In this document: positions 27,340-36,106 of the stretch, piece by piece | How the letters are laid out: each line of letters opens with the position of its first letter | Position numbering within the stretch: the first letter of the stretch is position 1 | NCBI RefSeq assembly: GCF_943181405.1 | Contig: NZ_CALPBY010000003.1 | Coordinates: forward strand, 248,001-312,000 | Origin: Cellulosimicrobium sp. Marseille-Q4280 | GTDB taxonomy: Bacteria; Actinomycetota; Actinomycetes; Actinomycetales; Cellulomonadaceae | Direction: 5' to 3' | DNA length: 64,000 nucleotides | Position numbers and translations under genes: made by a program | The notes under the pieces: model-generated | What the model was told of the DNA's origin: nothing | The model's input: the letters and a program-made list of their open reading frames with translations, nothing else | Databases searched by the model: none

Positions 27340-28158
27340 TCAGGGGCGGTACGCGCCCTGCCAGACCGTGTCGAACGGCGTCGCCGCCGGGACGCGCGCG
27401 GCGATGCCCTGCGTGACGACCTCCTTCGCGACCTCGACGGCCGCGCGGACGTCGGAGCCCTTCGCGAGCTCGGCCGTGATCGCCGCGGCGAACGTGCAGC
27501 CCGCACCCGAGACGCGCTCCTCGCCGACCTTGGGCCGCGACAGCACGACGACGCCGTCGCCGTCCACGAGGACGTCCACGGCGTCGGGACCTGCGAGCTC
27601 CACGCCGCCCTTCGCGACGACGACGTCCGGGCCCAGGTCGCGGATGCGGCGCGCGGCGTCGACGAGCTCGTCGACGGTCCCGATCGACTCGACGCCCGCG
27701 AGCGTGCGCGTCTCGAAGAGGTTGGGCGTCACGACGGTCGCGAGCGGCAGCACCTGCTCGCGCAGCGCGGTGTCGGTGTCGAGCGCGGCGCCCGGCTCCT
27801 GGCCCTTGCAGATGAGGACGGGGTCGAGCACGACGTGCTCCCACGACCGCGAGCGCAGCGACGCCGCGACGACGTCGATCGTCGCGGGCGTGCCGAGCAT
27901 GCCGACCTTCACGACCGACGGCGCGTGCGTGGCGACCGCGGCCTCGAACTGGTCGGCGATGACCTGCGCGTCCACCGGGACGAAGCGGTGCCCCCAGTCG
28001 TTCTTCGGGTCGAACGACACGATGCACGTGAGCGTCCCCACGCCGTACGCGCCGAGCTGCTGGAACGTCTTGAGGTCGGCCTGGATGCCGGCCCCGCCGG
28101 TCGCCTCCGAGCCGGCGATGACATAGGCGACGGGGGGCTGCTGGGTCTGCTGGCTCAT
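27340..28158 (-). CDS. Hydroxymethylpyrimidine/pyridoxal kinase (ThiD2/PdxK-type)
   Basis: A ribokinase-fold kinase of 272 aa. AGSEATGGAGIQADLKTF is the N-terminal substrate site and VSGAGCTFAAAI the anion hole with its Cys. The segment SFDPKNDWGHRFVPVD resembles B. subtilis PdxK, a ThiD paralogue that phosphorylates pyridoxal, more than the ThiD of thiamine synthesis. Either reaction is possible. AGGAG precedes ATG 28158. No thi genes are adjacent. The island attachment repeat begins 70 bases upstream of the start, so the island's insertion has replaced this gene's original upstream region. Confidence 0.85.
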   Translation of the reverse strand: MSQQTQQPPVAYVIAGSEATGGAGIQADLKTFQQLGAYGVGTLTCIVSFDPKNDWGHRFVPVDAQVIADQFEAAVATHAPSVVKVGMLGTPATIDVVAASLRSRSWEHVVLDPVLICKGQEPGAALDTDTALREQVLPLATVVTPNLFETRTLAGVESIGTVDELVDAARRIRDLGPDVVVAKGGVELAGPDAVDVLVDGDGVVVLSRPKVGEERVSGAGCTFAAAITAELAKGSDVRAAVEVAKEVVTQGIAARVPAATPFDTVWQGAYRP

Positions 28159-28227: not shown

Positions 28228-28255
28228 GGTGCGGACGAGCCGGTCTGTACGCCGG
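28228..28255 (-). repeat. Left attachment repeat (partial copy of the rnpB 3' end)
   Basis: 28 bp identical to 35677-35704. Similarity extends to 28267 (9 of the next 12 bases match). On the minus strand it reads as the last bases of RNase P RNA, including GGCGTACAGACC and GCTCGTCCGCAC. It is a partial copy with no RNase P RNA around it, as expected for the displaced gene end left by integration. Confidence 0.88.
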
Positions 28256-28267
28256 CTACCGTTCCCG

Positions 28268-28515
28268 GCTCGTTTCACGGGGTCTAGCAGGATGTCATCA
28301 GGTCTTTCAAAATTGGCGAGATACCAACGTTCCCGGACGATCCCCGGTCCGACACACACCACGGCATCTACCTCGTACTCTCGGAGTGCTGTGACAGATT
28401 GTGACGGGTCAGGGGCCCGGCCGGGCTGTTCGATCGGTGCAGCGACGGTCGCTGCACCGATCCGTCGCCGATCACACCGTACTTCAGCGGGCCCCTCTCG
28501 AATCGCCGCGGATCC
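28268..28515. other. Non-coding left end of the island with a 14-bp inverted repeat
   Basis: No supported gene. 28283-28340 is visibly A/T-richer. At 28432-28462 there is a perfect inverted repeat: gatcggtgcagcga, 3-base loop cgg, then its complement. There is no T tract. It could be a terminator, a binding site for a recombination protein, or a relic of a mobile-element end. Confidence 0.5.
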
Positions 28516-29052
28516 GTGCCCAGCTGCCCGCAGGACGGCCGCCCAGGTCCCGCGGGGGTCGTCTCGTCGGACGAGATGCTCGACCAGGTCGCCCGCGAGG
28601 TCGCTGCACGCCTGGACGCCCACCGCCTCAGGGACGGCCGCGCCAAGGCGATCACGGTCGTCATCGACGAAGGCTGGGCGCTGACCCGATCGGACCCCGG
28701 TGAGCGGTCGGCGCAGGACGGCCTGGCCCGCGCCCGGATGGCCACCGTCCTGCCCTGGCTCGCCGACAACGGCCCGGACGCCAGCGTGCAGGTGGTCTAC
28801 GCGACCCAGAGCCTGACCGGCGACCTGACCGACACCCGCCTCGCGCAGGCGTGTTCGACGACCGTCCTGCTGGCCCGCTCCAGCTGCGAGGTCTGGGAGT
28901 CCCAGCTCGCGCAGCTGCCCCGACGACGCAACCGCCGCGAGCACCTGGTCCGGTGGATGAACCACGACCTCGACCACTACCGGATCGGTGTCAACACCGC
29001 CGGTCTCGTGCACGTCGCGCGCATCGTCGACGACGAGGGAACAGGCGCATAA
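28516..29052 (+). pseudogene. C-terminal fragment of a conjugation-type ATPase (TraC/VirB4-like)
   Basis: 178 codons from GTG 28516. Convincing protein begins at about SSDEMLDQVAREVAARL (28558). AITVVIDEGWAL is a Walker B motif (hydrophobics then D-E), and VVYATQSLTGDLTDTRL is a sensor-like element found in conjugative ATPases. There is no Walker A anywhere upstream, so the N-terminal half is gone. The end (TAA 29050-29052) overlaps the next gene. Assignment to the VirB4/TraC group is from motif order only. Confidence 0.6.
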
Positions 29053-29527
29053 GCCCCAAGGTCGTCGGTGTCCCCGCGCCCCGCCCCTCCTGGGACGAGT
29101 GGGCGCTGGGCATCGCGTTCGCCGTCGCAGAGCACGCGGACTGCACACGCCGCAAGGTCGGCGCGATCGCCCTCGGCCCGGACCACCGCGTGCTCGGGAC
29201 GGGGTACAACGGCTACCCCGCGGGGGCGCCGGGCTGCCTGTCGGACGGCGCGTGCCCGCGCGGGCACCTCGGTTACGACCAGGTCGTAGCGTCCACGGCG
29301 TACACCTCCGGCAGCGGGACGTGCCACGCGCTGCACGCCGAGGAGAACTGCGTGCTGCACCTGAGCCCGCAGGCCCGGTCGGGCGCGACCATCTACGTCA
29401 CGGACGAGCCATGCCCAACTGCCAGCGGTTCCTCGCCGGCGCCGGGGTCGCCCGGGTCGTGTGGCCCGAAGGAGAGCTCAGCTACGCCCCTGGACGTGGC
29501 CTCGGCCTCGCCGAGTTCGCCGCATAG
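29049..29527 (+). pseudogene. dCMP deaminase-like gene with a lost start codon and one frameshift
   Basis: Encodes a cytidine/deoxycytidylate deaminase-fold protein: SWDEWALGIAFAVAEHADCTRRKVGAIAL, GTGYNGYPAGAPGC, HALHAEENCVLH (zinc His and catalytic Glu) and PCPNCQRFLAGAGVARVVW (zinc cysteines). The PC..C motif is split: PCP is in one frame and NCQRF in another. One base appears deleted in the C run at 29414-29416. No ATG/GTG is in frame at the expected start. ATA at 29049, 7 bases after GAGGGA and overlapping the preceding TAA, looks like a mutated ATG. If real, the gene is inactive. Confidence 0.7.
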
Positions 29528-29569
29528 GGGCAGGTGTCGCAGACCACCCGCACCACCGAAGGGCCCGAC

Positions 29570-29785
29570 ATGACCGTCACTTCCGAGCGCAAGCAGCAGA
29601 CCGAGGGTTGGGTCTGGCCCAGGTCGTCGACGACCGCGCACTACTTCGGTCCCGACAACAAGGCCCTGTGCGGACGTCACGCGCTACTGCTCGTCGTCCG
29701 CTACGACGCCGAAGCCGACGCCCCGGCCTCGCCCGACGACTGCGGGACGTGCCGCACGCTCCTCGACCACCGTCTCGCGGGCTGA
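29570..29785 (+). CDS. Small Cys-containing protein of the island
   Basis: 71 aa from ATG 29570, with GAAGGG 7 bases upstream; GTG 29534 in frame would add 12 residues. The pattern HYFGPDNKALCGRH ... CGTCRTLLDHR has a lone Cys-Gly followed by a C-x-x-C, like the other small island genes at 33709-34226. It may bind zinc. No known function; such short genes are frequent in actinobacterial integrative elements. Confidence 0.55.
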   Translation: MTVTSERKQQTEGWVWPRSSTTAHYFGPDNKALCGRHALLLVVRYDAEADAPASPDDCGTCRTLLDHRLAG

Positions 29786-29858
29786 CGCGGGGACTTTCCC
29801 CGACGCCGGCCCCACCAGCGGGTTGAACGTCACCACGACCCCTGTAGGAGTGCCCGCC

Positions 29859-30060
29859 ATGACCGCCACCGCCACGCTCGCCGAGCAGACCCTCGCCGCC
29901 GCTGCGGAGAAGGTGACGCCGAGCTCGCCGCCCAGCTGGAGGACCACGTCGAGACGACCGACCCCGAGACTGGTTGGGTGACGGTCTTCGACGCCGACGG
30001 CAACGGCAAGGCCGCGGTCAACGAGGAGGGCATCTACACCCGCGCCGAGCTCACCGGCCG
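29859..30060 (+). pseudogene. Frameshifted small island gene
   Basis: GTAGGAG precedes ATG 29859. Translation starts MTATATLAEQTLAAAAEKV and then breaks. Shifting by one base at 29914 restores DAELAAQLEDHVETTDPETG and WVTVFDADGNGKAAVNEEGIYTRAEL. A single G appears missing from an expected GTGGAC. The right end is undefined because no stop follows in the restored frame; it probably ends at a rearrangement junction near 30060. Family unknown. Confidence 0.55.
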
Positions 30061-30139
30061 GCTCGCTCACCGGCTTCTCGGCGAACCTGCCCGTGCGCTC
30101 GCGCGGGTGTGCCGTCTCATCGAACCCGTTGATGGTCAT
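30040..30139 (-). pseudogene. N-terminal fragment of an 'FDE-AHPR' island gene
   Basis: From ATG 30139: MTINGFDETAHPRERTGRFA then EKPVSEPAGEL. This matches in pattern the start of the gene at 32359 (MATSRFDESAHPRRGDGKFA). The upstream bases are also alike (cgtcaacaRgcggRc just before each ATG). Only about 33 codons look real; after that the frame runs antisense to the preceding pseudogene. It is probably the remnant of a duplication or deletion. Confidence 0.5.
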
Positions 30140-30330
30140 GCCCGCTTGTTGACGGGGCCCGTCGCGTCCGGCCACCGGCACGCGCTACCAGGTCGCTGGA
30201 GGATGTCCGGAAGTCGTTCATTCGCTCTCTCTCCTGGCAAGGCGAGACCCGCCGCGCACGCGCGACGCCCAGGTCCGCCGCGGCAAGGTGCACAGGCAAG
30301 GAAGCCGGACGACCGCTCAGCGAGGTTGAC

Positions 30331-31215
30331 ATGGACGCAAAAGGAACCGCTCCTCTCGCGACAGACGACGAGGCCGGCGACGTCCGCGAAGAAGTCCAGG
30401 ACGCCGAAACGTCCGCACCAGAGCCACCAGGCCAATCGGCCGTCCTGGCACAGGCCGGGCATGCGCTGCGCTACGTGCCCGAGCGGTTACCCCGCGGCAC
30501 CAGAGTTCTCACGGTAGGGCCCGATGAGGTGAAGGCTTTTCGCGACGCGGAACGGCAAGACGAGCTCTCGTCCTGGCCGATCGCCAGCGACACGTTCCTG
30601 TTCGAGGTGGGCCCTCAGAAGCCCGTCGTGGCTCAGAAGAAGGTTGGGGGCGACGTCCCCGAGTCGATGGAGGATATCGCCAACAACATCTCCAAGGAGG
30701 TCCTGAAGATCGTCGGCAGGGCCGCCCAGACCATGCCCAAACGCCTGGCGTCGACCTTCTCCGTCTATCTGCTCATGCTGGTCGTCGTCTTCCTCGTCGG
30801 CATCGTGGCGGTCGCTGCGGCTCTGGTGAAGGGGTTCAGCGCCGAGAGTGCAGCTGATGCCGCGACCACGGCAGCGTTCGCCGGACTCTCCGCAGTCAGC
30901 TTCATCACCGTGTTCGTCACCAACCCGCTACGAGCAATGTCGAGCGCCGGGCCGCAGTCCGCCTGGGTCCTCGCGATGGTGACCACGTTCTGGGCCAAGT
31001 TCGCGTACTTCAAGAACCAGGAGAACGCGATCATTGAGATACAAGCTGCGCAGGAGGCTCTGGACAAGTCGTTCGAGACGTACTTCGCGAACACCCAGGC
31101 GACGATCTCCGACCCCGAACCGGAGGCACCCGCCACCGAGTCAGATACACCCGCGGCGGGAAGCCCGGGCAATCCACCCACCTTCGGCAGTACACCGGGT
31201 AAGGCGACGACATGA
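30331..31215 (+). CDS. Two-TM membrane protein, first gene of a two-gene cargo unit
   Basis: 294 aa with a soluble N-terminus (1-140, acidic at first), TM1 at about 144-166 (VYLLMLVVVFLVGIVAVAAALV) and TM2 at about 181-199 (AAFAGLSAVSFITVFVTNP). A charged helical stretch (210-258) and a disordered Pro/Glu/Thr-rich tail follow. GAGG lies 5 bases before ATG 30331. The stop overlaps the next gene (ATGA). The layout, cytosolic head, two TM helices, cytosolic coil, is shared by several bacterial membrane effectors. I do not recognise the family. The frame is intact while its neighbours are broken, which suggests selection or recent arrival. Confidence 0.7.
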   Translation: MDAKGTAPLATDDEAGDVREEVQDAETSAPEPPGQSAVLAQAGHALRYVPERLPRGTRVLTVGPDEVKAFRDAERQDELSSWPIASDTFLFEVGPQKPVVAQKKVGGDVPESMEDIANNISKEVLKIVGRAAQTMPKRLASTFSVYLLMLVVVFLVGIVAVAAALVKGFSAESAADAATTAAFAGLSAVSFITVFVTNPLRAMSSAGPQSAWVLAMVTTFWAKFAYFKNQENAIIEIQAAQEALDKSFETYFANTQATISDPEPEAPATESDTPAAGSPGNPPTFGSTPGKATT

Positions 31216-31667
31216 CACGCGACGGCCGCTTCGACGACCTCCCCCAGCCACAACCCAAGCCATTGGCCATCCCCGAATCGTGGAAGAGACAAGTCGACCG
31301 GCCGAACCTGGCGACTCCCCCAGGCTTCTTAGACGGAGGTGACAGGATGTTCCTGCCCGCACCCATCGAGTGGCACGGCAAGCCGACGCTGCCCGCCCAC
31401 TGGCAGATGGTGGTCAGGCAGCCATTGACGGACTCATCGCAGACCGTGGAGATCTCCGTCATCAAAGCGCCTTCCCGCATCCGAAGAGGTGACGACTACG
31501 TCTTCCTCACCGCGGAAAAGGACACCGTCGAGACACTCCCGATCAGCACGGTGCGGTCGGTCGCGACGGTGGAGTCGGTGGTGGAGCTGCTCGAAGCGCT
31601 GCAGCGAGCCCTCGACCTCGACCTCGAAGCCGACAGCGGGATCGACCTCAACATCGAGTTCGACTAG
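31212..31667 (+). CDS. Small soluble protein, second gene of the cargo unit
   Basis: 151 aa. Its ATG overlaps the stop codon of the two-TM gene by 4 bases, so the two are made together. No signal peptide or TM. The first 45 residues are Pro-rich and probably extended; then a mixed strand/helix region (MQMVV-like strands, ISVIKAPSR, DDYVFLTAEKD) precedes a C-terminal helix (VESVVELLEALQRALDL) and an acidic end. Family unknown. A partner or immunity-like role to the membrane protein is only a guess from the overlap. Confidence 0.68.
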   Translation: MTRDGRFDDLPQPQPKPLAIPESWKRQVDRPNLATPPGFLDGGDRMFLPAPIEWHGKPTLPAHWQMVVRQPLTDSSQTVEISVIKAPSRIRRGDDYVFLTAEKDTVETLPISTVRSVATVESVVELLEALQRALDLDLEADSGIDLNIEFD

Positions 31668-31764
31668 TTTCGGGCGACACTCGCGCCCGAGCGGATGGCA
31701 CCAGACCGCGCGCTCAGTCCCGGTAGCAGGCGGCGGCGTACAGTATGTCCGCGTCCCCCCCGCC

Positions 31765-32359
31765 TCGGCGTACGCGGCCAGGTCCTCGCCCCGCTCGGCG
31801 ACGTCGCCTCCCTCACAGGCAGTCAGAGCGGCCAGGACCGGTGCGAACTCCCCGCCGCGGCCCGGTCGCGCTCGACATCACCCTCGGCCTGGGCACGTTC
31901 GGCGACCCGGGCGCACAGGTGGTTGACCAGGCGCTCGTGGTCCTCGTCGGTGACGAGCCGACCCGAGGTCCGCAGGAACGTGTCGCCCTGACCGTGCCGG
32001 GTCAGCGCCCTTTCCCGCGCCATCGCCAACCGAGGGACGGCATCGGGGTCGCTCGCCCGCAGGAGTCCGGGATCGGCAAGCAGCGCCAACGACTCCCCCG
32101 CCGCCTTGCGCTGCCCGTCGCTGGCGGCCCAGTTCGAGGACACCTTGCGACCGGCGCGCTCGACACCGATCGCCGCCCACTGCACGGCGAGCTTCGCCCG
32201 GGCACGGACGGTGGAGGTCTCGGGGTCCAGGCGCGGGACCTGCACGCGCTCTCGCGCCAGAGCGTCCAGGCCGCCGACAGCCTCGGCGGCGGCCTTGGTG
32301 GCGAACTTCCCGTCGCCGCGCCGAGGGTGTGCGCTCTCGTCGAACCTGCTCGTCGCCAT
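31765..32359 (-). pseudogene. 'FDE-AHPR' island gene with two C-terminal frameshifts
   Basis: Starts at ATG 32359 (MATSRFDESAHPRRGDGKFA). The frame stops at TGA 31823 (178 aa), but one-base shifts restore sensible protein: first EFAPVLAALTACEGGDVAE and RGEDLAAYAEAGG after about 31862, then DADILYAAACYRD ending before 31730. Both shifts need one extra G in a G run (G4 at about 31860, G7 at 31755-31761). The body is helical and Ala/Arg-rich. Function unknown. Genes beginning like this are typical of actinobacterial integrative elements. Confidence 0.6.
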
Positions 32360-32391
32360 GTCCGCCTGTTGACGGGCTCCGGCGCTCGCGG

Positions 32392-32652
32392 TCAGTGACC
32401 GGCGCGGCCTGCCTCGGCTTCCTGTGTGCGAGCACGCCGGGCGGCCTCGGCGGCGAAGCCAGTGCACGAGTCCTTGCCGCCGAAGTCGTTGCGGCGCTCG
32501 TGCGGTCCGTGCGGGGTCTCGTCGGTGCACCACTTCGGCCCCTCGGCGGGCGCCGCTTCGGGGGCCGGGACGGCGCTGGGCGCAGGCTCGGCGAGCTCAC
32601 GTTCCAGTCCCCGCGGATCCTGCTCATGGACCGCGCGTGGGGTGTGGGGCAC
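32392..32652 (-). CDS. Small Cys/His-containing island protein
   Basis: 86 aa from GTG 32652. A Pro/Ala-rich N-terminal half precedes KWCTDETPHGPHERRND and CTGFAAEAARRARTQE; two Cys and two His are spaced as in small metal-binding proteins. It lies 32 bases upstream of the 32359 gene on the same strand and probably forms an operon with it. Function unknown. Confidence 0.5.
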   Translation of the reverse strand: MPHTPRAVHEQDPRGLERELAEPAPSAVPAPEAAPAEGPKWCTDETPHGPHERRNDFGGKDSCTGFAAEAARRARTQEAEAGRAGH

Positions 32653-32823
32653 GACGTCCAGGTGCCGGGCACGATGACGCGACGCTTCACCCGCGAGCCG
32701 AAGAACCGCACCGACCGCGCGTTCCTCGACTCGCGCTCGGGTGGGTACGGCTGGGCTGAGGTCGCCGACGTAGAGGAGTCGGCGTACGCGACCACGGTCG
32801 CCGCGCAGTGGACCAAGCCCTGA
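32626..32823 (+). pseudogene. Possible C-terminal gene fragment
   Basis: In-frame ATG 32626 gives about 65 codons: MDRAWGVGHDVQVPGTMTRR then FTREPKNRTDRAFLDSRSGG and YGWAEVADVEESAYATTVAA. The composition is that of a real protein end, but there is no clear start or ribosome-binding site and it overlaps the minus-strand gene. It could be a remnant of a longer gene. Low certainty. Confidence 0.35.
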
Positions 32824-32851
32824 CGTCGCGCATCCGGGCGGGCCGCCGGGC

Positions 32852-33400
32852 TCACTCCACGGTGAGGATCGCCTCGACTCGCTCGCGCTGACCGGCGGTG
32901 AGGTCCAACTTCTCGAACTCGCGCTCGGTGATCGTCCAGGTGGCGTTGATCTCGGCGTTGTTGAAGTCGATGTCCTCCACGTGCCCGGGCACGAGCTGGT
33001 CCAACGACCTCAACTGCACACCCCAGGCGTCGAGGTGAGCGAGGTACGCGTCGCGGGCCGCATCGAGCTCCGAGCCCTCGTCGAGCTGCATCGCATCGAG
33101 GTCGTGCTGTACGACCAAGATGTCGGCCAACGTCGAAGCCGAGCTCGCGGCGACCCGGTTGACCAAGCGCGTCGCCGCGGCGGTCTGATCGGACAAGCCG
33201 CGAGACTCCGCAACGGCCTCGGCCATCTCCGCTTCCGAGGCGTCCAAGCTCGCCTCACCGGCCTCGGCCAGGTCGAGCAGAACGTCTGTGCTTTGGCGGG
33301 ATAGGGCCTGTGCCCAGGCGACGCCACCACCGACTGCGAGCAGGAGCGCGACAGCGGCCGCGGCCGCGAGGGCTGGTCGGCGGAACCGGGAAGTCTTCAC
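32852..33400 (-). CDS. Exported or membrane-anchored helical protein of the island
   Basis: 182 aa from GTG 33400, with AGGA 8 bases upstream. The N-terminus is a basic segment followed by one hydrophobic helix (about 9-30, ALAAAAAVALLLAVGGGVAWA), a signal peptide or anchor. The rest is acidic and helical (heptad-like Ala/Leu/Asp/Glu pattern), ending in TITEREFEKLDLTAGQRERV. No Cys and no known domain. It is the last gene of the minus-strand small-gene cluster. Function unknown. Confidence 0.6.
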   Translation of the reverse strand: MKTSRFRRPALAAAAAVALLLAVGGGVAWAQALSRQSTDVLLDLAEAGEASLDASEAEMAEAVAESRGLSDQTAAATRLVNRVAASSASTLADILVVQHDLDAMQLDEGSELDAARDAYLAHLDAWGVQLRSLDQLVPGHVEDIDFNNAEINATWTITEREFEKLDLTAGQRERVEAILTVE

Positions 33401-33483
33401 GCGCGAATCCTGGCAGAACGGACACGTCGGCGCGGAATCGTCTCCGGGTGAAGTGCGGGCCGCACACGGGCCCGGTCGAGGGG

Positions 33484-33705
33484 TCAGTCCTCGGGCGGCG
33501 CCGCTTGCTCCGCCTCGACCTCGGCGAGCGTCTTCTTGTACTCGGCGCGCAGGTGCATGTCGAACCCGCGCTTCCAGTTCGGGGACACGACGCCTTTGCC
33601 GCCGCCGGACGCTCCGCACGAGCAGCCCCAGTGACCGAACTCGTCACCAGTGCCCTGGTGGCGCCGGCGCATGCGCTCGTTGACCTCGTCGTACTTGCTG
33701 GGCAC
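33484..33705 (-). CDS. Tiny Cys-containing island protein
   Basis: 73 aa from GTG 33705, with AAGGA 7 bases upstream and only 3 bases after the previous stop codon. MPSKYDEVNERMRRRHQGTG is followed by HWGCSCGASGGG with a C-x-C-G pair, then a basic and acidic tail. It is part of a four-gene cluster of tiny genes. Function unknown. Confidence 0.55.
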   Translation of the reverse strand: MPSKYDEVNERMRRRHQGTGDEFGHWGCSCGASGGGKGVVSPNWKRGFDMHLRAEYKKTLAEVEAEQAAPPED

Positions 33706-33708
33706 GGC

Positions 33709-33942
33709 TCAGTCCTTCATCGCGCGGGCGATGCGCAGGCACACGGGGCAGTCGGCACGGTCGGAGGTGACGATCCCGGGCGCCCCGGTCCCGACGTAGA
33801 TGAGGCGTGGGTTGATCCGGATCTTGTGGTCGCACAGCGTGCGTGTCTTGGGCCCGTCGAGGTCGACCAGGTGCAGGACTGTGCCGCGCGGGAGGCCGAC
33901 AGCGAGCAGCTGCAGCGGCAGTTCCTGGTACTCGGCGGTCAT
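33709..33942 (-). CDS. Tiny Cys-containing island protein
   Basis: 77 aa from ATG 33942, with AAGGAG upstream. It contains TRTLCDHKIRINPR and DCPVCLRIARAM: a Cys followed 35 residues later by C-x-x-C. The same arrangement (TRTLCGVK ... CQRC) is in the next gene upstream, so the two are probably distant paralogues. The ATG overlaps the stop of the upstream gene (ATGA). Zinc binding is likely; the role is unknown. Confidence 0.6.
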   Translation of the reverse strand: MTAEYQELPLQLLAVGLPRGTVLHLVDLDGPKTRTLCDHKIRINPRLIYVGTGAPGIVTSDRADCPVCLRIARAMKD

Positions 33943-34226
33943 GAGGCTGCGCTCCTTCTCGTGGCCGCGGCGTCGCAGCGCTGGCACAGCGGCTGGCGGG
34001 CGGTCTCCCGGTCGTCGTCGCCGTAGACGCGCTGCAAGGCGGTGACGTGGCCGACTCCCCGGGTGCTGTGGCGGGCGACGTACGGGATTTTCACACCGCA
34101 CAGGGTGCGCGTCTCGTCGGTGGGGTCGAACCGGTGCGCGCGGGTGGACACGACGAGCGCGGACAGGCTTGAGCCCTGCGCCCGGCCCCAGGAGATGAGC
34201 GGGAAGGTGTCCGTCACGGTGGTCAT
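33939..34226 (-). CDS. Tiny Cys-containing island protein
   Basis: 95 aa from ATG 34226 (GAGGGGGC just before). Core: DPTDETRTLCGVKIPYVARH and QPLCQRCDAAATRR. Similar layout to the 33709-33942 and 29570-29785 genes (T-x-C-G then C-x-x-C). It overlaps both neighbours by 4 bases, so translation of the cluster is coupled. Function unknown. Confidence 0.6.
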   Translation of the reverse strand: MTTVTDTFPLISWGRAQGSSLSALVVSTRAHRFDPTDETRTLCGVKIPYVARHSTRGVGHVTALQRVYGDDDRETARQPLCQRCDAAATRRSAAS

Positions 34227-34498
34227 GCCCCCTCAGTGGGTCCGGCAACAGCATTCTGCCTGCTGTTCGCCAGACGGGACATCGCCTGGCGGATCGAGAA
34301 GACGGAGACGCCGTCCACCTTGCTGGGCGGCTTGCGGTCATCGGCGATGACGCTCTCGACGAACGCGATCGCCCTGATGGCGCACGTCTCGCAGATGGTC
34401 GTCGGGTAGAACCGTCCAGGGCGCTTGTACGAGCCGCCGCCGAACCGCTGGACGCTCAGCGCGGGGTCAGCCTTCTTACGGCACGAGGTGCAACGCAT
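34223..34498 (-). CDS. Small zinc-ribbon-like island protein
   Basis: 91 aa from ATG 34498. The N-terminus MRCTSCRKKADPALS and the later TTICETCAIRAIAF give two C-x-x-C pairs 32 residues apart, a zinc-ribbon pattern. The C-terminal half (VSVFSIRQAMSRLANSRQ) is helical. It is the first gene of the minus-strand cluster and is divergent from the integrase relic; the two start codons share the bases CATG at 34496-34499. An excisionase- or regulator-like role would fit the position but is not shown by sequence. Confidence 0.6.
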   Translation of the reverse strand: MRCTSCRKKADPALSVQRFGGGSYKRPGRFYPTTICETCAIRAIAFVESVIADDRKPPSKVDGVSVFSIRQAMSRLANSRQNAVAGPTEGA

Positions 34499-35545
34499 GG
34501 TCAGGCCCCGTTCCGTACTGCTGCAGGAGCAGCTCGGGGCGGCGGTCTCCGGCCGCTGGGTGGACCCGCGCGGCGGTCAGATGAGCTTCAAGGAGTACGC
34601 GGAGAAGTGGCGCCTGGTGCAGGTGCACCGCGAAGGCACCGAGGCGCTGGTGGAGTCCCATCTCCGTCGGCACGTCTACGACATCATCGGCCACACCGCG
34701 CTGGCCGACATCCGACGGACCGACATCCAGACGTTGGTCCGCATCCTGCAAAAGAAGCCGCTCGCCCCGAGCACGATCCAGGTCGTCTACCGGTTCCTGA
34801 CGGCCGTACTCAACGCCGCCGTCAACGACCGCCTGATCGCGGAGACACCGGCCAAGCGCATCGCGCTGCCGAGGCGGAGAAGTCTCGCGTGGAGCCCATG
34901 CCGGTCGCATCAGTGCTCGCGCTGGAAGAGGCCATGCCGGATTACCTCTCCGCGCTCGTTCCGTTCGCAACTGGGACAGGCCTGCGCCAGGGCGAGGTGT
35001 TCGGACTCACCTGGGACCGCATCGACTTCAAGAAGCAGATCGTAACGGTGAACAGGCAACTGGTCTCTGTCACGGGAAACCGCCCCAAGTTCGGGCCGCC
35101 GGAGACCGATGCGTCCTATCGCGACGTCCCCTTTGCAGACGACACTCTGGAGGCACTGCTCCGCCATCAGGAGGAGTTCGGTGACGGCAGGAACGGGCTG
35201 GTGTTTCACGCCCGGGAGAACGGGCCGCTGAGACGCAACCGGTTCTCCGAGATCCTCGGCACAGCTCGTGACCGCGCGGGGCTGGCGAAGGCATGGACCA
35301 TGCACGACTTCCGGCACTTCTACGCCTCGATGCTGATCTCCCAGAACGCCTCGTACAAGCAGGTCCAAGAGCGGCTGGGGCACGAGAACGCGATGGAGAC
35401 GATCAACACCTACTCGCACCTCTGGCCGAACGATGACGAACTGACGCGCAAGGCGGTGACGGCCGTGCTCGGGGCCGCTCGTGCGGAGCGCGCGAAGCAG
35501 CGCGCGGCGGAGGCCGCCGCGACGACCCAGCAGCCCGACTCGTGA
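34497..35545 (+). pseudogene. Tyrosine integrase relic (N-terminal truncation plus frameshift)
   Basis: The first frame gives GRWVDPRGGQMSFKEYAEKW and LVESHLRRHVYDIIGHTALADI (SAM-like core-binding domain). One base appears missing at about 34872. The second frame then gives the catalytic domain: GTGLRQGEVFGLTWDRID (first Arg), HDFRHFYASMLI (H-x-x-R box), RLGHENAMETINTYSHL (final His and the nucleophile Tyr). The arm-binding N-terminus (about 50-60 residues in relatives) is absent, because the sequence before 34530 does not fit. The gene ends 130 bases from the right attachment repeat. Catalytic residues survive, but the protein is split and probably inactive. Confidence 0.8.
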
Positions 35546-35676
35546 CGGGCTGCCCCGCCACGAGCGCTGCCGCCCCTTGGTCAGGAGCCTCAGTTCCGTC
35601 ACAGCCGAATCGTGCTGTGACCGAACTGTGACTGCAAACCCGCCGAATCTGAGCGTTTTCCCAGGTCAGGCGGGGC
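35546..35676. other. Non-coding stretch between integrase and rnpB
   Basis: 131 bases with no gene. It includes CACAGCCGAATCGTGCTGTG (35599-35618), an inverted repeat with arms cacag/ctgtg and a longer imperfect core, and an A/T-richer part near 35650. This is where integrase arm sites would be expected. Confidence 0.4.
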
Positions 35677-35704
35677 GGTGCGGACGAGCCGGTCTGTACG
35701 CCGG
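35677..35704 (-). repeat. Right attachment repeat, inside the rnpB 3' end
   Basis: Identical over 28 bp to 28228-28255. It spans the 3' strand of helix P1 and the sequence before it (GGCGTACAGACCGGCTCGTC on the minus strand), so the functional rnpB end is kept on this side. Confidence 0.88.
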
Positions 35705-36106
35705 GTTCTGTTCCCGCGCGCGGTTGCCCCCGCGCGGGCGACGGTCATCCATCTACGACGCACGTTGCCATACGCCTCCAGCGGTCTACCCGACTGCGCT
35801 TCTCACCAGAGAATCGGGCGGGCCGCCCTCAAACACAGTCTGTCTGACCTTGCTCCAGGTGGGGTTTACCGAGCCGGACCGGTCACCCGGCCCGCTGGTG
35901 GTCTCTTACACCACCGTTTCACCCTTACCGCGACGATCGGGGCCGAAACCTCGACCAGCACGGCGGTCTGTTCTCTGTGGCACTGTCCCGCGGGTCACCC
36001 CGGGTGGGCGTTACCCACCACCTTGCCCTTCGGAGCCCGGACGTTCCTCGGCGGGGAGGCCTTGCGACCTGCCCCGACGCGACCGTCCGACCGACTCGTC
36101 CGCACC
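35679..36106 (-). ncRNA. rnpB: RNase P RNA (class A, actinobacterial)
   Basis: The catalytic RNA that matures tRNA 5' ends. About 428 nt. The two ends pair as helix P1 (GUGCGGACGAGUCGGUC at the 5' end with GACCGGCUCGUCCGCAC at the 3' end). Conserved segments on the minus strand include GGGTAACGCCCACCCGGGGT, GACAGTGCCACAGAGAACAG, GGTAAGGGTGAAACGGTGG, GTAAGAGACCACCAG, GGTAAACCCCACC and AGAACCCGGCGTACAG. A TATCCT -10 box (36113-36118) lies 7 bases upstream of the 5' end. The 3' end serves as the attachment site of the adjoining island. Confidence 0.95.

Follow-up and report, generated by a model that had tools for sequence, protein, structure and literature searches.

This work concerns a 7.4-kb insert between thiD and rnpB, the RNase P RNA gene, in Cellulosimicrobium sp. 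Marseille-Q4280. The stretch analysed (the window) comprises 64,000 nucleotides, positions 248,001 to 312,000 of contig NZ_CALPBY010000003.1. An earlier interpretation made from the letters alone (the sequence-only reading) held that a 28-bp identical direct repeat bounds an island here. Comparison of the window with itself bears this out: the two copies agree at 28 of 28 positions and form the longest exact direct repeat present, the runner-up being 20 bp. By a hand estimate from base composition, the chance expectation for such a pair in 64 kb is about 1e-5. When up to three mismatches are allowed, the 28-mer is found at two places only in the 4.86-Mb genome, and these are the two repeat copies. 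No tRNA or tmRNA gene was found at either end of the insert.

The right-hand copy includes the 3' end of rnpB, because the RNase P RNA model RF00010 matches positions 35681-36098 on the minus strand. One copy had been equated with the 3' strand of helix P1; this strand is indeed covered, together with about 10 nt of inner sequence that the claim did not include. The left copy had been described as lacking any rnpB around it. RF00010 matches nowhere else in the window, hence not at the left copy, and a blastn alignment of the left copy to rnpB covers only the last 36 nt of the gene. Beyond the repeat, the similarity continues for 12 bases with 3 differences, the same count as reported earlier. 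These differences had been taken to mean that the two ends come from different alleles. The differences themselves stand, but they are probably better understood as those between an attachment site on an element (attP) and one on the host chromosome (attB), which would share a 28-bp core and resemble each other imperfectly beyond it.

An integrase relic adjoins rnpB, as the sequence-only reading had noted. It is a split and truncated tyrosine integrase that ends 131 bp from the rnpB-side repeat. Its two pieces lie in different frames and match Phage_int_M and Phage_integrase, respectively (Table 1). The N-terminal piece lacks a start and the N-terminal part that is present in intact relatives, and the catalytic piece is 48% identical over 216 columns to the intact integrase of a related locus, L069. 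That integrase, from Promicromonospora iranensis (L069/L087), stops 24 bp away from the end of rnpB as set by the Rfam model. The genome has eight Phage_integrase matches in all, the relic being one of them.

Table 1. Features of the thiD-rnpB region, in window coordinates (E, expectation value; GC, guanine plus cytosine; ORF, open reading frame)
Feature	Position	Strand	Evidence
thiD, probable pre-insertion neighbour of rnpB	27340..28158	-	Phos_pyr_kin, E 2.3e-64 on the containing ORF
Distal attachment-site copy, probably the host's displaced rnpB 3' end	28228..28255	+	28/28 against the rnpB end; thiD 72 bp further left
Element-side extension of the attachment site	28256..28267		9/12 bases as in rnpB
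Integrated element (very probable), 7.4 kb, 69% GC, coding content decayed	28256..35676		Insert absent in 10/17 genus genomes; composition
Deaminase-like ORF, putative cargo	28851..29573	+	dCMP_cyt_deam_1, Pfam E 1.7e-13
Integrase relic, N-terminal and central part, own frame	34425..35045	+	Phage_int_M, E 1.3e-5, just below the Pfam cut-off
Integrase relic, catalytic domain, other frame	34607..35545	+	Phage_integrase PF00589, E 1.4e-23
CAGGTCAG motif, presumed integrase binding site, element side	35662..35669	+	Same offset at 24/32 occupied sites, 0/10 empty
rnpB-side attachment-site copy	35677..35704	+	28-bp identity with the left copy
rnpB, RNase P RNA gene (class A), complete	35681..36098	-	RF00010, 272 bits, model positions 1-367 of 367

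Taken together, the region 28256-35676 is almost certainly the relic of an integrative element, which on the evidence of comparative sequence would have entered the 3' end of rnpB by site-specific recombination. The basis for this is the identity of the repeats, the empty sites of relatives, the adjacent integrase remains, recurrent insertions, cores carried by phages and the pairing of helix P1. In the mechanism proposed, the element would bring along its own version of the rnpB end (attP), and the tyrosine integrase would recombine this with its host counterpart (attB), the crossover probably falling within the core that holds the 3' strand of P1. The rnpB junction would thereby gain a matching end, leaving the gene complete, while the host's own last rnpB bases, its native flank and thiD would be displaced by 7.4 kb. 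The broken integrase is presumably the one that made this insertion.

All 17 genomes yielded by a search of the genus were examined. The 28-mer, at up to three mismatches, is matched in 16 of them, with two copies in four; G002 matches a shorter pattern. An empty site is present in ten (G001-G005, G010 and G012-G015), in which rnpB is directly followed by thiD with a single copy of the site, the arrangement that the sequence-only reading had anticipated in relatives lacking the element. It had also placed thiD about 70 bp downstream of the rnpB end before integration, in good agreement with a distance from core to thiD start of 52-80 bp in the ten empty genomes, against 72 bp at the left copy in the window. 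No genome of the genus was seen to carry both copies without an island, the four with two copies holding 7.0-19.5 kb between them.

In the other seven genomes an insertion lies between thiD and rnpB. Its size is 7.4 kb in G000, 2.6 kb in G006, 10.6 kb in G007, 19.5 kb in G008, about 0.55 kb in G009, 7.0 plus 2.4 kb in G011 and about 1.1 kb in G016. Inspection by eye showed the thiD-side site to be degenerate in G006, G009 and G011, and no second site was seen in G016. The insert of G008 is the G007 element, 99% alike, with about 9 kb more. G011 contains two consecutive inserts besides its degenerate site next to thiD, and has its own relic of an integrase C-terminus near the rnpB-side copy, 46% identical to that of the window over 109 residues. 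A 10.6-kb rnpB insert (L021 1488-12059, L022/L023), which G008 shares, was seen by eye to encode ORFs for ATP-binding transport and for sialidase-like and deacetylase-like proteins; no related integrase was found in it.

Sites of this kind extend to the family. A 25-base core, at up to two mismatches, is matched in 85 of 221 family genomes, and 19 of these, including 10 of the 13 genomes of genus g19, carry two or more copies, with a maximum of four as counted from the listing. Where a fetched array contains rnpB, one copy sits next to the gene and the rest lie downstream on the same strand. In G036 and G134 the copies are on separate contigs, where their order is not assignable. The densest array seen is that of G188 (L071), with four copies at 2440, 4031, 5324 and 8190, within 6 kb downstream of rnpB.

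The sequence-only reading had proposed a search for integrases next to the rnpB 3' ends of actinobacteria, and such pairs proved to be recurrent. A profile built from an alignment of four intact integrases, picked for lying at rnpB, was scanned against genome contigs and matched 20 loci, three of which (L087, L095 and L096) are rows of the query itself. Beyond the query genomes, rnpB lies within 8 kb at 7 of 17 loci (L089, L090, L092, L093, L094, L097 and L098). In all ten of the 20 loci that bear rnpB, the integrase is convergent with the rnpB 3' end, across gaps of 15 bp to 4.9 kb. The rnpB-adjacent loci come from Promicromonospora, Antribacter, Myceligenerans, Microbacterium and Nocardioides, and from metagenome-assembled genomes (MAGs) of Propionibacteriaceae and Actinomycetales. 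No rnpB was present in the 8 kb left by the contig on that side of L088, which is placed by the tree described below as a near copy of L089, nor in the stretches fetched for the other nine loci, whose identity to the query does not exceed 40%.

The class was covered by an even sample of 167 genomes. rnpB was found in 163 of these, and 66 have a relative of the L069 integrase at an E of 1e-25 or lower. By-eye comparison placed such a relative within 25 kb downstream of rnpB in at least 11 of the 167, that of the window included, and none was seen by eye within 25 kb upstream among the matches listed. Seven of the 11 are convergent with rnpB at 2 bp to about 1 kb (G000, G272, G273, G263, G366, G259 and G384), and four are on the same strand at 13-21 kb (G231, G282, G293 and G382). 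Direct repeats that include the rnpB end measure 35 bp in G259, 30 bp in G231, at least 44 bp in G293, where the repeat reaches the edge of the stretch, and 33 bp in G382; none was found in the short stretches fetched for G263, G273 and G366.

A tree was built from 70 integrases. One of its groups, with a support of 94 in the Shimodaira-Hasegawa-like approximate likelihood ratio test (SH-aLRT) under midpoint rooting, has 16 members, of which 14 are at rnpB, among them the catalytic piece from the window. Over the tree, the rnpB label requires 8 changes against a mean of 19 in shuffled labels, and none of 500 shuffles was as low. The labels were assigned by the author, 42 rows having other or unknown targets; L100, L197 and L111 bear the rnpB label on a short pattern only, without a whole rnpB, and two of the six glnA labels (L123 and L125) were given by eye. 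Twelve duplicate loci and L103-L105 were left out, and L097 and the G259 integrase have no row. From this tree it follows that the targeting of rnpB, though concentrated in one group, is also present in others. The earlier description of rnpB as an unusual target therefore understated its use within the Actinomycetes, where it is repeated and, by the tree, involves more than one integrase lineage. A side observation from the same searches is a group I intron match (RF00028, 74 bits) at L106 8990-9189, near a distant relative of the integrase in an alphaproteobacterial MAG.

The junction itself provides further evidence. At an offset of -18 from the core, CAGGTCAG is present with at most two changes at 24 of 32 occupied sites and at 0 of 10 empty ones (Fisher p 3e-5, a value that is too optimistic as the sites are related). 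The window carries the motif exactly. L221, in which it lies one base further out, was counted as a miss; L229, where the pattern could not be placed, and L089, L097, L222 and L226 were left out of the count, the motif being present by eye in L089, L097 and L222 and absent in L226. Three of 11 further, unsorted single-copy sites have it, including L064, which is the same place as L085, a site counted as occupied only for a second copy elsewhere in its genome. The motif is presumed to be a binding site for the integrase.

RNase P RNA is essential in bacteria. Helix P1, the part of the RNA that the core overlaps, is largely paired after insertion, which is partly a consequence of the core being rnpB sequence. 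In the window, 14 of its 15 pairs are Watson-Crick and one is a wobble. The 35 occupied genes have 477 Watson-Crick, 36 wobble and 12 unpaired cells among 525 (15 positions each), and the 10 empty genes 142, 8 and 0 among 150; this count takes in 45 of 48 rows, without L017, L087 and L228 and with G282 as occupied. All but two of the 12 unpaired cells fall in the two outermost pairs, L220 and L221 each having an inner one, and in L073, L076 and L098 the helix is kept by three wobbles. The 50 nt downstream of the gene have a mean folding energy of -15.9 kcal/mol at occupied sites (z -0.89, n=32) and -23.0 kcal/mol at empty ones (z -1.81, n=10), where base composition may differ too and where L227 and L228, both occupied, have strong hairpins. 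Because downstream folds are less stable at occupied than at empty sites, it is weakly suggested that insertion costs rnpB its native 3' hairpin.

The rnpB end is also carried by phages. Arthrobacter phages Kukla (E 8e-9) and TripleJ (E 3e-8) match an rnpB 3' end perfectly over 35 and 34 bp, respectively. Of the 50,697 phage records searched with this query at an E cut-off of 1, only Kukla and two TripleJ records match. In Kukla, a 29-base core lies 10 bases past the integrase stop codon with no annotated feature over it, and the same 29 bases recur without mismatch inside rnpB of G222, a genome of the order to which the window's genome belongs. Like the element in the window, both phages combine a related integrase (38.0% and 37.1% identical over 75% of the query) with a core that is an rnpB 3' end; unlike it, Kukla has the core turned the other way round with respect to its integrase. 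IMG/VR contig L111 has a core resembling an rnpB end after its integrase, 92% like rnpB of L094 over 25 bp. This core lies between GGTCAG and CTGACCAGC, an arrangement that can be read as an attP with arm sites. A scan of IMG/VR found no exact match to the family core, searches of the phage collection with the rnpB ends of L223, L097 and L090 gave no convincing phage core, and no rnpB-like core was found by pattern in the 400 bases past the integrases of Corynebacterium phage Adelaide and Gordonia phage Schmidt. MT836823.1 and MT835553.1, unannotated 'phage' records that derive from human faeces, were considered as attP sources and dropped as probable bacterial DNA, because the rnpB end matched there as one segment of a long run of rnpB and no integrase turned up with the profile in stretches of 5 kb.

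Another target came to light among the viral integrases. Downstream of those in L110, L118, L119 and L124 (and, by eye, L123 and L125), the sequence reads as the 3' end of glnA when taken in codons. This related group may use glnA as its site. These integrases belong to the same family, some with a similar GGTCAG motif, but by the codon reading differ in the gene targeted.

The element in the window looks dead. Its GC content is 69%, against 74% and 77% outside it to the left and right. Apart from the integrase pieces and the deaminase-like ORF, whose resemblance to ComEB and an anti-phage dCTP deaminase is weak and falls far under curated cut-offs, the scanned ORFs of the island have no family match save for one small ORF that matches a PHROG of unknown function. 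No virion genes were recognised among the ten window ORFs scanned against PHROG, nine of which have no match. ORF 28516-29052, considered by eye as a transfer ATPase, was rejected after family and structure-sequence searches had matched nothing. TrwC relaxase genes lie in the same stretch as the integrase in L069, L076 and L224, as does an FtsK/SpoIIIE gene in L227, which points to mobilizable or conjugative elements; neither a relaxase (TrwC) nor an FtsK-type transfer gene is among the window ORFs scanned.

Other histories have to be weighed against integration. Part of rnpB might have been duplicated and DNA then inserted or rearranged between the copies, with the integrase as a bystander. 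This would fit a left copy that has only the last part of the gene and an integrase that is broken, but it is hardly credible given that single-copy relatives have thiD at the position of the left copy, that the same event recurs with different contents, that related integrases lie at rnpB beyond the genus and that phages carry the core. It is rather unlikely, and still worth serious consideration, that the region is composite: an older element at the rnpB site would have been hit by later insertions, and the relic would perhaps belong to one visitor only. Arrays are common in relatives, and both the double insert of G011 with its degenerate site and the enlarged G007 element of G008 are examples of such build-up, whereas the window's genome has no third copy of the site at up to three mismatches. 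As to its nature, the element was probably mobilizable rather than a phage. A prophage is suggested by the rnpB ends of Kukla and TripleJ and by the single PHROG match; this is an improbable origin in view of the nine window ORFs without such a match, the relaxase genes of three related elements and the FtsK/SpoIIIE gene of a fourth.

Several observations sit poorly with the entry of an integrative element at the rnpB 3' end, as preferred here. The window's integrase is broken and its role at this site is thus indirect; the group in which it falls has moderate support (SH-aLRT 94), its own branch is long and the tree is rooted at the midpoint. Eight of the 32 occupied sites lack CAGGTCAG at the fixed offset. 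In G282 the integrase shares the strand of rnpB and lies 21 kb downstream of it, and the two stretches fetched are free of exact direct repeats of at least 12 bp; this genome was counted only as having an integrase near rnpB. A two-mismatch core in G037 (L080 position 18354) lies 16 kb away on the 5' side of rnpB, which misfits downstream insertion, and one of the four copies in G191 is on the opposite strand.

Islands in tRNA and tmRNA genes typically encode a tyrosine integrase, are flanked by repeats of the gene's 3' end, keep the gene complete and accrete in tandem. Genomic islands and prophages in these genes were reportedly surveyed by Williams in 2002. The rnpB elements resemble the islands collected by Islander and TIGER in each of these respects, and in having a structured RNA as target; they differ from tRNA and tmRNA islands in that the target is the RNase P RNA gene. 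According to the portions of the source available, TIGER/Islander islands lie in tRNA or tmRNA genes in 33.8% of cases, in coding sequence in 43.4% and in intergenic sequence in 22.8%, and the site classes given there are these three only (PMC12424338). Among the open-access papers matched, the accessible parts hold no account of rnpB as an attachment site, and a prior report is possible. Apparently, then, this is a known kind of system with an ordinary mechanism, acting on a target that is repeatedly used and previously undescribed.

Surveys that sort sites into tRNA or tmRNA, coding and intergenic classes, as in the part of PMC12424338 available, may file rnpB islands as intergenic. Intact relatives supply integrases whose site is to be expected wherever the rnpB end is conserved, which could be of use in strain engineering, and these enzymes should help in asking why the 3' ends of structured RNAs are preferred. 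A further and tentative possibility, which may well prove wrong, is that the RNase P RNA gene is a permanent docking place for mobile DNA in actinobacteria, that several integrase lineages evolved to read the P1 end, and that each arrival rewrites the 3' strand of P1, the ribozyme's terminal helix, and replaces its native 3' flank and hairpin. If true, how an essential ribozyme is matured or terminated would be decided time and again by mobile elements, and integrases would act beside catalysis as a selective pressure on P1. The sequence comparisons suggest more generally that many actinobacterial elements and some phages land in rnpB, as others do in tRNA genes. rnpB would then rank with tRNA and tmRNA genes among the safe landing sites that RNA structure defines.

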